The notes below the pieces were generated by a model. The model did not search any database and was not told where the DNA came from. It saw only the letters and a program-made list of their open reading frames with translations. Positions 17,594 to 29,567 of a stretch of DNA of 44,456 bases are shown piece by piece. Position 1 is the first letter of the stretch; each line of letters opens with the position of its first letter. The DNA is from Acidobacteriota bacterium (lineage in GTDB: Bacteria > Acidobacteriota > Vicinamibacteria > Vicinamibacterales > SCN-69-37): NCBI GenBank assembly GCA_005799825.1, contig SYFT01000009.1, forward strand, positions 1 through 44,456. The letters are read 5' to 3'. Both the position numbers and the translations under genes were made by a program.

Positions 17594-20500
17594 ATGTACA
17601 TCGAGCTTCATACGGCCTCGGCCTTTTCGTTTCTCGCCGGCGCGTCATTGCCAGAGACGCTTGTCGCGCGTGCGGCAGCGCTGGGATATCCCGCGATTGC
17701 GTTGCTCGACCGCGACGGCGTGTACGGCGCCCCGCAATTGTATCGCGCTGCCAAAGCCGCCGGCCTGCGCGCCATTGTCGGCGCCGAACTGACGATTGCC
17801 CAGACCCATCCGGGGGGGGCGTCTTTGTGGACCCTGCCCGTCCTCGTCGCGTCTGTCGAGGGATATCGCAATCTCTGCCGGCTGATTACTCGCGCCAAAT
17901 CGAAGGCCGTAAAAGGTGAGTCCCTGCTCACACTGGCAGACCTAGATGGGCACTGCGGCGGATTGATCGCCCTGGCCGGACGTCCGGCTCTGGTCGCTGA
18001 GCGTCATGGCGTGGGCGGCCTGGTGGATCAGATCGTCGGTATCTTTGGCCGCGATCGCGTCTGGGTCGAATTGCAAAGGCATCTGCGTCGTGATGAGGAA
18101 GCCGCCAACGCGTCGTTGCTCGATTTAGCCGCCGCGTTCCGCGTGCCTGTCATGGCATCCAACGACGTGCGGTTTGCCAAGCCTGAAGACCGCCCCGTCT
18201 TTGATGTCCTCACATGCCTACGGCATAAGACCACACTTGCGCAGGCGGGGCGGCGGCTGTCGGTGAATGCCGAGCGCTACCTGAAGCCGCCTGAGATGAT
18301 GGCGCGGTTGTTCAGCGATTTGCCGCAGGCGCTTGCCGGCACCGAGTCGCTGTTCGAACGGCTCGAGTTCACCCTAATGAATCTGGGGTATCGCTTTCCG
18401 GAGTATCCAGTGCCGGTGGGCGAAACCCAGGCGTCGTTTCTGCGGCGCCTGACACATGTGGGCGCGCGCGATCGATATCACCCGCTCGACGAGGCGTTTG
18501 GTGGCCGAGCGAAAGCCCAGATCCAGCGCGAGCTCGATCTCATCGATAAACTTAATCTCGCCGGCTACTTTCTCATCGTCTGGGACCTGGTCAATTTCTG
18601 CCGGCAGCAGGGGATTCTTGTGCAGGGCCGTGGGTCGGCGGCCAATAGCGCCGTGTGTTATTCGCTGGGCATCACGGCTGTGGACCCGGTGGGGATGGAG
18701 TTGCTGTTTGAGCGATTCCTGTCGGAGGAACGTGGCGAGTGGCCTGATATCGATCTGGATTTGCCGAGTGGCGACCGGCGTGAACGGGTCATCCAGTACG
18801 TGTATCAGCGATACGGCGCGGCGGGAGCCGCGATGACGGCCAATGTCATTTCGTATCGCGGCCGCAGTGCCGCACGCGAAGTGGGGAAGGTGCTCAGCAT
18901 GGACAAGGGCGAGATCAACGTTTTGTCCAAAATGATGAGCCGCTTCGAGTTTGTGGATCCGGCCGACACGGTCACGCAGCACCTGAAAGAGGCCGGTGTG
19001 GATGTCGGCAAACAGGTCTACACGCAGTTCGCCACGTTGTGGCAGCGCATGCAGGATCTGCCGAGGCATCTCGGGCAGCACTCGGGAGGCATGGTGATGT
19101 GCCACGGCCGGCTGGACGAGGTGGTGCCGCTTGAGCCTGCGTCGATGCCCGGCCGGATGGTGGTGCAGTGGGACAAAGATGATTGCTCGGATCTCGGGAT
19201 CGTGAAGGTCGATTTGCTGGGCCTGGGCATGATGGCCGTGCTGGAAGAGGCGGTGCTACTGACGGGTGTGGATCTCGCGCATCTGCCGCCCGATGACCCC
19301 GAGGTGTATCGCCTGCTGCAGGCGGCTGATACGGTGGGGGTGTTTCAGGTGGAGTCACGCGCGCAGATGGCGACGCTGCCGCGACTCAAGCCCAAACACT
19401 TTTACGACATTGTCGTTGAAGTCGCGCTGATTCGCCCGGGCCCCATCGTGGGCCAGATGGTGCATCCGTACCTGAAGCGGCGGCGCGGTGATGAGGCGGT
19501 CACGTACGCGCATCCCAGCCTGGAGCCGGTGCTAAAGCGTACGTTGGGTGTGCCGCTGTTCCAGGAGCAGTTGCTGCGCATCGCGATGGTTATTGCTAAT
19601 TTCAGCGGTGGGGAAGCCGAGGAACTGCGCCGAGCGATGGGCTTCAAGCGATCGGCGAAGCGCATGTTGGACATCGAAGGCCGGTTGCGGGCCGGGATGG
19701 CCGCCAACGGCATTGTCGGCGCGGTGGCAGATCAGATTGTGCTGTCGATTTCGTCGTTCGCGTTGTACGGATTTCCAGAGTCACACGCGGCCAGTTTCGC
19801 GCTCATTGTCTATGCCAGCGCGTATCTGAAGGTGCATTTTCCGACGGCGTTTTACACGGCGCTGCTCAACAACCAGCCCATGGGTTTTTATGCGCCGGCC
19901 ACGCTCGTCAAGGACGCGCAGCGGCGTGGCGTGCGGTTCGCACCTGTGGATGTGCAATCGTCCGACTGGCCGTGCACGATTCAGGATGATGGTGTCATTC
20001 GACTAGGCCTGATGTATGTGCAGGGCCTGCGCATCGATGCCGGCCGAAAAATTGCAGCTGCTAAAAATACGTCGGGTGTCTTTTCACGATTTCGGACACT
20101 CGACGAGCTTGGGGCGCGCACGGGCCTGCGTCGCGATGAACTGCGCATGCTCGCTGAGTCTGGCGCGCTCGCTTCACTCGGAGGCGATCGCCGATCGGCG
20201 CTGTGGCAAGCTGAGCGCGCTGCCCGCCCTGCGGGGCCGCTGCTGTGCGACTCGTTCGATTCGCCACAGGATGCGGAAAAGACGTCGGCGGAAAAGACGT
20301 CTGGTGTCTTTTTCGAGACCGCAGGGAAAAAGACACCCGACGTCTTTTCCGCGATCAGATCCCCGCTCCCAGTGATGACACTACTTGAACGCGTGGAGGC
20401 CGACTATCACACGACGGGGCTGACCATCGGTCCGCATCCGATGGCGCTGGTGCGCCGCACGTTGTCGGCGCGCGGTGTGGTGCGCGCGGTGGATCTGGCG

Positions 20501-20791
20501 CATGGACGACCGGGACGCCGGGTGCGTGTGGCCGGGGCCGTGATCACGCGGCAGCGGCCGCGTACGGCCAAAGGATATGTCTTTTTGTCGCTGGAGGATG
20601 AAACGGGTATCGCCAATGCGATCCTCACGCCCGATGTGTTTACGTCACACAAACGCACAGTCGTGGACGCACCGTATCTGCTGATTGAAGGCGTTCTGCA
20701 GAATCAGGACGGCACTATTTCGGTAAAGGCCGAACGTGTAGAGGCGCTGGCCCACCAGCGCCCGCCGCCACAATCTCATAATTTCAGGTGA
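17594..20791 (+). CDS. dnaE2: Error-prone DNA polymerase III alpha-type DnaE2
   Basis: 1065 aa, within the normal DnaE2 range. Order: PHP domain from residue 1 (YIELHTASAFSFLAGAS), polymerase palm with the catalytic Asp pair in WPDIDLDLPSGDRRERV (near 385-400), GRGSAANSAVCYSLGITAVDP, HLGQHSGGMVMC, QVESRAQMATLPRLKP and YGFPESHAASFALIVY, then a helix-hairpin-helix part and a C-terminal OB fold (RVRVAGAVITRQRP, SLEDETGIANAI). The DnaE2 type is supported by the imuA-imuB context and the length. It carries out mutagenic translesion synthesis with ImuAB. Oddly, residues near 823-831 and 894-920 are encoded by copies of a palindromic repeat (EKTSAEKTSGVFFETAGKK), so repeat elements seem to have inserted in frame between the HhH and OB regions. 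Confidence 0.93.
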   Translation: MYIELHTASAFSFLAGASLPETLVARAAALGYPAIALLDRDGVYGAPQLYRAAKAAGLRAIVGAELTIAQTHPGGASLWTLPVLVASVEGYRNLCRLITRAKSKAVKGESLLTLADLDGHCGGLIALAGRPALVAERHGVGGLVDQIVGIFGRDRVWVELQRHLRRDEEAANASLLDLAAAFRVPVMASNDVRFAKPEDRPVFDVLTCLRHKTTLAQAGRRLSVNAERYLKPPEMMARLFSDLPQALAGTESLFERLEFTLMNLGYRFPEYPVPVGETQASFLRRLTHVGARDRYHPLDEAFGGRAKAQIQRELDLIDKLNLAGYFLIVWDLVNFCRQQGILVQGRGSAANSAVCYSLGITAVDPVGMELLFERFLSEERGEWPDIDLDLPSGDRRERVIQYVYQRYGAAGAAMTANVISYRGRSAAREVGKVLSMDKGEINVLSKMMSRFEFVDPADTVTQHLKEAGVDVGKQVYTQFATLWQRMQDLPRHLGQHSGGMVMCHGRLDEVVPLEPASMPGRMVVQWDKDDCSDLGIVKVDLLGLGMMAVLEEAVLLTGVDLAHLPPDDPEVYRLLQAADTVGVFQVESRAQMATLPRLKPKHFYDIVVEVALIRPGPIVGQMVHPYLKRRRGDEAVTYAHPSLEPVLKRTLGVPLFQEQLLRIAMVIANFSGGEAEELRRAMGFKRSAKRMLDIEGRLRAGMAANGIVGAVADQIVLSISSFALYGFPESHAASFALIVYASAYLKVHFPTAFYTALLNNQPMGFYAPATLVKDAQRRGVRFAPVDVQSSDWPCTIQDDGVIRLGLMYVQGLRIDAGRKIAAAKNTSGVFSRFRTLDELGARTGLRRDELRMLAESGALASLGGDRRSALWQAERAARPAGPLLCDSFDSPQDAEKTSAEKTSGVFFETAGKKTPDVFSAIRSPLPVMTLLERVEADYHTTGLTIGPHPMALVRRTLSARGVVRAVDLAHGRPGRRVRVAGAVITRQRPRTAKGYVFLSLEDETGIANAILTPDVFTSHKRTVVDAPYLLIEGVLQNQDGTISVKAERVEALAHQRPPPQSHNFR
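20064..20085. repeat. Palindromic repeat copy 1 within dnaE2
   Basis: The sequence aaaaatacgtcgggtgtctttt is a diverged copy of the unit found twice more at 20288-20352. It is itself partly palindromic (AAAA...ACGT...TTTT). It is translated in frame as KNTSGVF. Confidence 0.65.
20288..20352. repeat. 26-bp inverted repeat inside dnaE2
   Basis: The left arm (20288-20313) starts gcggaaaagacgtc and ends ggtgtcttttt. The right arm (20327-20352) is its reverse complement in 25 of 26 positions, around a 13-nt loop. A half copy (gcggaaaagacgtc) also sits directly before it at 20273-20286. The structure resembles a REP or BIME-type element carried in a coding sequence with the frame kept. Confidence 0.85.
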
Positions 20792-27244: not shown

Positions 27245-28456
27245 ATGTTTATGCGACCCCGCCCGTGGCTGATCTCCGCCGTTGTCGCGCTCACGCTTAT
27301 GTCCTCGGGCCTGCTGGCCCAGCGGACGGCGACTGCCATCACCTACTACCCGCCGCGACTGGATTGGGCACGGGTGTCGCCGGCCGAGGCTGGATTTGAT
27401 CCCGTCAAGCTGAAGGCTGCCGTTGATTTTGCGATTGAGAATGAAAACCCAGGCACCAAAGATCTGGCGCTGGACATTCCGAATACGTTCCGCCGCGAGG
27501 TGCCGTACAACGCGCTGATCGGCCCCACGTCACCGCGGGCGGCCGCCAACGGGCTTATCGTTCACCGGGGACGAATCGTGGCGGAGTGGGGAGACACGGC
27601 TAGGCCCGACATGACGTTCAGTGTCACGAAGACGTTTCTCTCGACAATTGTCGGCCTCGCGTACGACCGCGGGCTGATTAAAGACCTCAACGATCGCGTA
27701 GGTCCGTACATGCCGGCGAACCTGGACCTGTTTGCGTCGGAAAAAAATGCGCCGATTACCTGGGACCACCTCCTGCGGCAGACGAGTGACTGGTCCGGCA
27801 CGTTGTGGACCAAACCTGACTGGGCCGATCGGCCGGTGGGTGCGACAGAGGCGGAATGGGAGAAGCGGCCGGTCTATCCAGCTGGATCGCATTTTAAGTA
27901 CAACGACACGCGAGTGAACGTGATGGCGCTGGCCGCGCTGCACGTGTGGCGCGATCCGCTGCCCGAGGTGCTGCGCCGCGAAGTGATGACGCCAATCGGC
28001 ACGTCGAGCACGTGGCGCTGGGAAGGGTACAACAACTCGTGGGTCGATCTCGACGGCCGCAAGGTGCAGGCGTCCACCGGCGGTGGCCACTTCGGTGGCG
28101 GTATGTTCATCAGCGCGTTCGACCTGGCACGCTTCGGCTATCTCTTTCTGAGGAACGGTAAGTGGGAAGACCGCCAGCTTGTGTCCACGAAGTGGATCGG
28201 GCTCGCGCGCACACCTGGAGTGAATCCCGAGTACGGATTCATGAACTGGTATCTGAATCCCGGCCGTAAGGCTCTGCCGTCCGTGCCAGAGAATAGCGTC
28301 CGATTCGTCGGCAACGGCAACAACATCGTCTATCTGGATTGGGAGAACGATCTCGTGGTGGTCGTGCGGTGGATCAAGGGAGGACGCGCCAACGGTGCCA
28401 CCAAGGGCAGCGCCCTCGACGACTTCCTGGGCAAGGTTGTGGCGGCGATGAAATAA
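27245..28456 (+). CDS. Secreted serine hydrolase, class C beta-lactamase fold
   Basis: 403 aa from ATG 27245, which begins a signal peptide (MFMRPRPWLISAVVALTLMS, then SGLLAQ). The fold of penicillin-binding-protein/class C enzymes is shown by SVTK (the SxxK nucleophile motif, near residue 125), YNDTRVN in place of the usual YxN, and GGHFGGGMFISAFDLARFGYL. Near the end VRWIKGG covers the region of the KTG-like motif. Members include esterases, D-aminopeptidases and 6-aminohexanoate hydrolases; the substrate is not evident. Faces a long hairpin and convergent moaA. Confidence 0.87.
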   Translation: MFMRPRPWLISAVVALTLMSSGLLAQRTATAITYYPPRLDWARVSPAEAGFDPVKLKAAVDFAIENENPGTKDLALDIPNTFRREVPYNALIGPTSPRAAANGLIVHRGRIVAEWGDTARPDMTFSVTKTFLSTIVGLAYDRGLIKDLNDRVGPYMPANLDLFASEKNAPITWDHLLRQTSDWSGTLWTKPDWADRPVGATEAEWEKRPVYPAGSHFKYNDTRVNVMALAALHVWRDPLPEVLRREVMTPIGTSSTWRWEGYNNSWVDLDGRKVQASTGGGHFGGGMFISAFDLARFGYLFLRNGKWEDRQLVSTKWIGLARTPGVNPEYGFMNWYLNPGRKALPSVPENSVRFVGNGNNIVYLDWENDLVVVVRWIKGGRANGATKGSALDDFLGKVVAAMK

Positions 28457-28460
28457 GGGA

Positions 28461-28536
28461 ACGGGCGTCGAGCGGTGGAACACTCCGGAAACACCGCTCT
28501 TGAAGAGCCCGGAGTCTTCCACCGCTCGACACCCGT
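28461..28536. terminator. Long hairpin between convergent genes, probable bidirectional terminator or repeat
   Basis: The left arm 28461-28488 and the right arm 28509-28536 pair at 26 of 28 positions around a 20-nt loop that contains a small inner hairpin (gctcttgaagagc). It fills the gap between the hydrolase (stop 28456) and the end of moaA (28545). No long T run follows on either strand, so it may be a dispersed repeat used as a terminator. Confidence 0.65.
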
Positions 28537-28544
28537 CCCCGTAC

Positions 28545-29567
28545 TTATCCCCCTCGCGTATGCATTTCCAGGTGCGCGTCTTTTTTTAGTACGCTCAGGG
28601 GGATGTAGGTGCCGCGGCCGCGCACAGAGCGACGTTCTTCGGCGCCGCGATCCGCCCGGCCCCTCCAAACCGCCTTCAGCATATTGAGCAACGTCTCAGG
28701 CGATGCACCGGCGCGCAGGGGGCGGCGCAAGTCCGTGCCGTGCTGCGCGTACAGACACAGCAACAACACCCCGTCGGCTGTGAGTCGCGCGCGGTCGCAC
28801 GTGCGGCAGAACGGCTGCGTAGTGGACGCGATGATGCCGAACGCCAGACCGTCGGGCAGTTGGAAACGATCCGCAGGCGCTGACGTCGGACTCGGCAGCG
28901 GCTCGATCGGCCCGTAGATCGACGCGAGTCGTTCCAGCATCTGCGCGCGTGAGAACACCGCGTCGGGACGCCAGTGTGTCGCGCCGCCTACGTCCATGTA
29001 CTCGATGAACCGAACTTCGGCGCCGACCGATCGCCCGTACTCCAGCAGGTCCCCGACTTCGTCGTCGTTGTCGCCCTTGGTGATGACCGAGTCGATCTTC
29101 AGGTCTGTGAACCCTACCCGCCGCGCGGCGTCGATGCCGGCGAGCACCTGCGGCAGCGCGTCCCTGCGCGTCAGCGCGGTGAAGCGCTCTGGACGCATCG
29201 TGTCCAGGCTGACCGTGACGCGATGGAGTCCCGCCGCTTTCAGGTCGGCAGCCGCGTCGGCTAGTAGCACGCCGTTAGTCGTCAGCGCCAGGTCCACGAT
29301 CCACGGCTTCGCCGCCAGTTGCGCGACAAGCGACGGCAGGTCGCGGCGCAGCAACGGCTCGCCACCCGTCAGCCGCACCCGGTCCACGCCCATCTGTCCG
29401 AAAAGCTCAGTGAGCTGGACGGTTTCCTCAAACGAGAGCACATCCTCGCGCGGCAGCCACACGTACTCGTCCTCCGGCATGCAGTAGTGACACCGCAAAT
29501 TGCACCGGTCGGTCACCGACAAGCGCAGGCTGCGCAACGGTCTGCCAAGCGTGTCGAGCGTGGTCAT
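28545..29567 (-). CDS. moaA: GTP 3',8-cyclase MoaA
   Basis: 340 aa from ATG 29567; a TTG at 29576 would add three residues. Radical-SAM motif RLSVTDRCNLRCHYCMP holds the N-terminal [4Fe-4S] cluster, followed by LTGGEPLLRRDLP and the SAM and GTP region (TNGVLL, TVSLDT). The C-terminal cluster motif is CRTCDRARLTADGVLLLC. MoaA converts GTP to 3',8-cyclo-GTP, the first step of molybdopterin synthesis; MsrP in this window is a user of that cofactor. A basic insert lies before the C-terminus (RGRADRGAEERRSVRGRG). No other moa genes are in the window. Confidence 0.95.
   Translation of the reverse strand: MTTLDTLGRPLRSLRLSVTDRCNLRCHYCMPEDEYVWLPREDVLSFEETVQLTELFGQMGVDRVRLTGGEPLLRRDLPSLVAQLAAKPWIVDLALTTNGVLLADAAADLKAAGLHRVTVSLDTMRPERFTALTRRDALPQVLAGIDAARRVGFTDLKIDSVITKGDNDDEVGDLLEYGRSVGAEVRFIEYMDVGGATHWRPDAVFSRAQMLERLASIYGPIEPLPSPTSAPADRFQLPDGLAFGIIASTTQPFCRTCDRARLTADGVLLLCLYAQHGTDLRRPLRAGASPETLLNMLKAVWRGRADRGAEERRSVRGRGTYIPLSVLKKDAHLEMHTRGG

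Follow-up and report, generated by a model that had tools for sequence, protein, structure and literature searches.

An in-frame palindrome in an acidobacterial dnaE2 as a probable copy of a RAYT-linked REPIN family, with coding sites reused in related genomes

Why does a long palindrome lie in frame inside the gene of a DNA polymerase, and does it belong to the enzyme or to the DNA? The question is raised by a window of 44,456 nucleotides from an acidobacterium of the Vicinamibacterales (contig SYFT01000009.1, positions 1 to 44,456, the whole stretch that was analysed). The gene and its two repeat sites, A and B, have the following window coordinates:

17594..20791, + strand: dnaE2, error-prone DNA polymerase, the repeat host; an uninterrupted open frame of 1065 codons
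20064..20084, + strand: single REP at site A, reading KNTSGVF; 20 of 21 bases equal the family consensus
20273..20287, + strand: 15-bp in-frame tandem duplication of 20288-20302, at a spacing of 15; not in congener G001
20288..20352, + strand: REPIN at site B, reading EKTSGVFFETAGKKTPDVF; one REP at 20292-20312 (+) and one at 20328-20348 (-)

The host frame scored 1208.5 bits against the NCBIfam model NF004225 “error-prone DNA polymerase”, which has a cut-off of 939. The original prediction described a palindrome in frame at 20273-20352 accompanied by a half copy and a third, diverged copy at 20064. The palindrome is real and forms a REP-type inverted pair, with arms of 27 nt each at 20288-20314 and 20326-20352 that are 96% complementary across an 11-nt gap. 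Its 22-mer (at most 3 mismatches) matched three times in the window vs 0 in 100 dinucleotide shuffles. The repeat at 20273-20287 also exists, but a separate half copy was rejected in favour of a tandem duplication on account of the spacing and its absence from the G001 DnaE2 orthologue (95% identical); the duplication is in phase and reads AEKTS-AEKTS. The third copy is present as well, while the word “diverged” had to be dropped since it matches the consensus at all but one base. In an alignment with 5fku, a DNA polymerase III alpha chain, site A corresponds to a 3-residue gap following the chain's “EARNKGGY” and site B to a poorly aligned stretch following the segment ending “ALWQAER”. We take these sites to be the HhH region and the HhH-OB interdomain linker, respectively, and the linkers at both sites vary in length among orthologues.

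The genome of this window is referred to as G000 and its congeners (Vicinamibacterales, Acidobacteriota) as G001 to G006. A genome-wide search for the core repeat, as originally proposed, found it dispersed: the 21-mer (at most 3 mismatches) had 57 matches in the 2.9-Mb G000 genome, 29 forward and 28 reverse, while the mirror control (the 21-mer read backwards) had 0. Most of these matches are inverted pairs, 28 or 35-42 bases apart. The REPIN thus described consists of two inverted 21-nt REP hairpins with the REP consensus AAAAGACGTCGGGTGTCTTTT, and two REPIN traits, an inverted REP doublet with a hairpin and near-identical dispersed copies, were found. The dnaE2 palindrome is probably one copy of this non-autonomous mobile element. 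The six congeners had REP counts of 28, 0, 8, 5, 42, and 45, so that five of them carry 5-45 copies each, and 62 matches were obtained in G006 with the family consensus as the search pattern. An exact pair pattern searched in one genome per species (84,980 species, a collection that may omit the window's own genome) returned 17 stretches in only three metagenome-assembled genomes, JANLHE, SHUF, and JAURFE, titled Acidobacteria or Vicinamibacterales. Elements whose best REP differed from the family consensus at more than two positions (e.g., on contigs C78 and C91) were left out, as were, in the shared-site and G003/G006 coding analyses, elements with less than 150 bp of flank.

These searches, together with the shuffles, bear on two other answers: that the palindrome arose by chance, or that it encodes a motif conserved in the DnaE2 protein. 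With 0 matches in the shuffles, 57 in the genome, and none for the mirror control, chance is out, and the motif is out with the segment missing from the DnaE2 of G002 and of six proteins from other genera (G008-G013); we regard either answer as practically eliminated. The same comparison shows that the insert is absent from some relatives. Conservation of the segment in all DnaE2 homologues, named beforehand as the outcome that would speak against a repeat insertion, was not observed because one congener and the other genera lack it.

Copies inside genes are common. Genes were called by our own small coding-potential script, which ignores the element itself, so translations are predicted; elements were counted as intragenic if they lie in frame and 15 codons or more within a gene. 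This applied to 12 of 34 elements in G000, 6 of 15 in G001, 9 of 22 in G005, 18 of 43 in G003, and 13 of 31 in G006, together 58 of 145, in contrast to the extragenic location of a REP in the strict sense. Hosts in G000 include DnaE2 (twice), QueA, NagA, GluQRS, HpnE, an aminofutalosine-deaminase-like hydrolase, an ApbE-like protein, an HpnA-like epimerase, and a MeaB-to-methylmalonyl-CoA-epimerase fusion, of which the ApbE, hydrolase, epimerase, and GluQRS hosts score under the cut-offs of those models. In seven of these hosts the sequence before and after the insert can be aligned to the best solved relative, and in the fusion a solved MeaB matches one side and a solved epimerase the other.

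Intragenic pairs of the long type (56-63 bp) had a length divisible by three in 10 of 10 cases vs 8 of 16 elsewhere (Fisher p 0.009), a test that left out two copies near gene ends and in which the copies are not all independent, because two are the DnaE2 orthologues of G000 and G005. Eight of the ten read KTSGVF..KTPDVF. The canonical 51-bp REPIN is open in all six frames, as were only 164 of 20,000 shuffled-arm palindromes; a special adaptation was not read into this because the G003 REPIN has stops in two of three printed frames and yet sits inside genes. At L098 and L101 of G005, three REPs together make up a composite insert of 108 bp, or about 37 codons, that is likewise in frame.

Other copies lie at gene borders. 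At one G000 junction a REPIN encodes the C-terminal end of homoserine dehydrogenase and also provides the start codon for the gene that follows, and this junction is also occupied in G003 and G006. In G003, REPINs often begin where a gene ends and provide its stop codon (L132-L271; AAATGA, read as K and stop). A regulatory RNA element, either terminator-like or an mRNA-stability hairpin whose coding location is incidental, could be suspected from the many copies abutting gene ends, from the stop codons given by the G003 family, and from the strong predicted hairpin of site B (-48.5 kcal/mol as RNA, z = -7.3 vs 200 shuffles). It is nevertheless very improbable: more than a third of copies lie mid-gene and in frame, where a terminator would be harmful, and presence differs between close species.

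The fate of the same loops in relatives was followed in DnaE2, MeaB, HpnE, QueA, and NagA, five genes picked because G000 has an element in each; DnaE2 of G004 and G007 is too fragmentary at sites A and B. Site B holds the G000-type family in G000 and G005, a remnant with a deleted centre in G001, the G003 family (MSSEAISPEIASELI) in G003, and a shorter variant in G006, and it is empty in G002 and in the six DnaE2 proteins from other genera. Site A carries a REP read in one frame in G000 and G001 and in another frame in G003 and G006, and a CCCCGGGGCTTTAGCCCCGGGG palindrome in G005. The MeaB linker contains palindromes or REPs of three families in six of seven genomes. HpnE has intact palindromes in four of seven (G000, G003, G005, and G006) and a degenerate remnant in G004, while QueA is occupied in two of the six genomes having the site (incomplete in G005) and NagA in four of the six having the gene (no orthologue was found in G005). 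A further palindrome family, AAACGACCTCAGAGGTCGTTT, was observed in frame in QueA and NagA of G001 (L190 and L202), at the same loops that hold the G000-type family in G000.

The suggestion that the region tolerates linkers stands in part, as two DnaE2 linkers hold other palindromes or none in relatives. That the segment was taken up for a function, e.g., altered polymerase activity or mutagenesis, would be in line with two linkers struck in several species and with REPs found by others in DnaE2 and repair genes, for which the passages of PMC3733652 drawn on here speculate about a function. Such an uptake is nonetheless very unlikely: the peptide is not conserved, relatives have other families, other frames, remnants, or nothing, and the same elements occur in unrelated enzymes. 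The DnaE2 segment KTSGVF...KTPDVF would rather be a tolerated linker, showing no sign of polymerase function.

Each of the seven genomes of the genus has one or more Y1_Tnp genes that pass the Pfam cut-off. In G001 (L046), G005 (L045), and G006 (L048), two REPINs of the family flank a gene for a Y1/HUH tyrosine transposase (RAYT, REP-associated tyrosine transposase), and the downstream REPIN writes its last codons. The three proteins are mutually 67-72% identical. The NCBIfam profile REP_Tyr_transpos (NF047646) matched the four RAYTs tested with E-values of 1e-17 to 1e-20 and 63-75 bits, under its cut-off of 80. The RAYT of G003 (L044) is 50-53% identical to L046, L045, and L048. In G003, G001, and G006 alike, the RAYT has the same neighbour gene, presumably rho, with DNA that matches among them. 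The G003 RAYT is flanked by a different palindrome, AAAATGAGCTCGGAGGCGATTT plus its complement, an 18-mer of which has 80 matches in G003, 1-3 in each other genome (n=6), and 0 in the mirror control.

The cognate RAYT clade was not found in the G000 assembly, and no RAYT lies beside the G000 stretch matching the putative rho neighbour. The only RAYT of G000 is of the L031 type, which has relatives in G001, G002, and G004, is 40-45% identical to the cognate RAYTs, and has a GGGGGACGGGTGT-like repeat upstream. Because of this, G000 copies either persist without their transposase or the RAYT lies in the missing 6-7% of the assembly. G002, which has neither family copies nor a RAYT of this clade, is placed within the genus by an unrooted tree (supports 80 and 90), and one reading of its state is REPIN loss following RAYT loss. 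Apart from the family, a second long palindrome occurs in the window at 28451-28546 between convergent genes, with 38-nt arms that are 87% complementary. Its end resembles the GGGGGACGGGTGTC repeat, which occurs next to the L031-type RAYT and, in G001 and G004, within the MeaB linker. A third Y1 transposase, encoded at L053 (G003:C19), is more distant: it shares 23-31% identity with the others, and GGGCCCGCTG repeats surround it.

Very likely, this locus is occupied by a REPIN that a RAYT mobilises and whose coding insertions persist in permissive loops only, with these loops reoccupied or rewritten time after time. The RAYT would process single-stranded REPIN hairpins and insert copies; those in genes would survive only if the insert leaves the reading frame intact and its peptide lands in a loop that tolerates it; and such loops may then take up further insertions, or a change of the RAYT/REP pair may lead to rewriting of the REPIN already there. 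This reading follows from the dispersal of the family in the genus, the RAYT between two REPINs in three genomes, the many in-frame copies in conserved genes, and the sites that are empty or held by another family in relatives. Counted against it are the lack of a cognate RAYT in the G000 assembly, the NF047646 scores below cut-off, and the few sites shared by G000 and G001. The idea that the repeat spreads as a protein-coding insert is right as far as the 12 of 34 in-frame elements go, but the repeat appears to spread as a DNA element tied to a RAYT gene and not as a selected protein module.

How sites come to be shared was assessed in G003 and G006, sister species that are 91.9% identical over five proteins and whose REPIN families differ. 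All usable elements of both genomes were compared as an unchosen set. Positions matched (junctions within 36 bases, at a loose flank-identity threshold of 0.45) for 14 of 43 G003 elements and 14 of 31 G006 elements in a global-alignment pass, following 12 of 41 and 12 of 30 in a first pass, and eight of the 14 sites are intragenic in both species. REP identity at these sites is 0.64 between the species (14 pairs) vs 0.91 within each (91 pairs each). A shifted-position control gave 0 in each of 12 rounds, although shifts of at least 60 bp cannot, by design, reproduce the matches, and arithmetic expectations are therefore quoted: about 0.03 pairs genome-wide under random placement, and about 1.5 if the 25 homologous locus pairs, with alignments of about 1200 bp, are taken as given. 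Seven matching pairs were found between G000 and G003, which is more distant from it, and some of them have weak flanks; among the pairs from more distant species, L016/L252, L086/L136, and L086/L111 are doubtful. The closest pair, G000 and G001, has only three sites in common, which is against stable inheritance, so turnover is fast or some copies were missed. Since 14 matching sites have switched families and G000 and G001 share so few, sites are reused while sequences turn over, and repeated insertion and in-place rewriting both fit.

Each lineage's family may have entered, independently, whatever few protein loops and gene junctions allow an insertion, so that the same loops are struck again with no rewriting in situ. 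This explanation, which competes with the preferred one only on how matching sites arise, has a little less than an even chance. It agrees with the different frames and boundaries of the site A REPs in G000/G001 and G003/G006, with the scarcity of sites common to G000 and G001, and with the differences of this close pair at NagA, QueA, and HpnE, where G001 has another palindrome family or none. It is at odds with the 14 matches where random placement predicts about 0.03, and with HpnE, where G003 and G006 have identical outer bases, GGAAATGA..TCATTTCC, around a different interior, although the AAATGA end is common to both families in any case. Somewhat doubtfully, it can be proposed that upon a change of the RAYT/REP pair the new REPIN family is written genome-wide into places held by the old one. 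Equally tentative is that this would be in-situ replacement or REP-directed homing instead of spread to new sites with decay at the old. With coding loops among the rewritten places, each species would therefore encode a new peptide in the same protein linkers.

REPs are commonly regarded as extragenic, whereas more than a third of copies are coding here. REPIN population turnover and RAYT targeting of existing REPs, both little understood, become testable through matching loops in sister species, and the inserts provide a natural map of protein loops that tolerate roughly 16-21 residues. DnaE2 segments like KTSGVF...KTPDVF should not be annotated as polymerase features.

REPIN and RAYT (TnpA-REP) systems are known as REPtrons (PMC3116915, PMC3686654), and “orthoswitch” denotes different REP classes at syntenic RAYTs, with a model in which old REPs stay and decay (PMC3686654). 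Compared with the portions of these papers drawn on, the present system shares the dispersed inverted REP doublet, the hairpin, the gene for a Y1 tyrosine transposase with these repeats on its flanks, and the different REP families at syntenic RAYTs. It differs in that no GTAG-type tag was found in the G000-type family, in that more than a third of copies are intragenic, against only 14 gene-overlapping 16-mers in P. fluorescens SBW25, and, unlike in the orthoswitch model, in that families differ at matching sites. The part of PMC3733652 used here describes CGTC REPs with a terminal CGTC, an 8-9 bp stem, a 4-5 nt loop, and no linked transposase. As judged by eye in the printed copies, the GTAG (GTRG) tag is not next to the hairpin and CGTC lies inside the unit, not at its end, in a RAYT-linked family; both classes were rejected for the G000-type family, the tags not being at the ends.

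Intragenic REPs, including those in DnaE2, are already published: the same part of PMC3733652 (2013) reports GTAG and CGTC REPs and dimers in frame inside genes, DnaE2 among the hosts, as here, and, for recB, two Xanthomonas species whose REPs differ at about the same site. The present elements have the features of neither class, are RAYT-linked, which CGTC REPs were reported not to be, and occupy matching sites across many genes in sister species. By description and not by sequence, they resemble the TIRYT genes and TIR repeat families of Acidobacteria, with Y1 transposases bordered by inverted repeats such as Koribacter ORF1552 with its repeat family (PMC3733652). Also by description only, they resemble Rickettsia palindromic elements, in frame in many protein genes, and differ from RPE-4 and RPE-6, which that text classes with CGTC REPs and for which it reports no linked transposase. 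In-situ REPIN family replacement was not found described in the literature searched (supplements aside). As far as our searches show, what is new is the acidobacterial RAYT-linked family itself with its high coding share, and the filling of matching coding sites in sister species by different RAYT-linked families.
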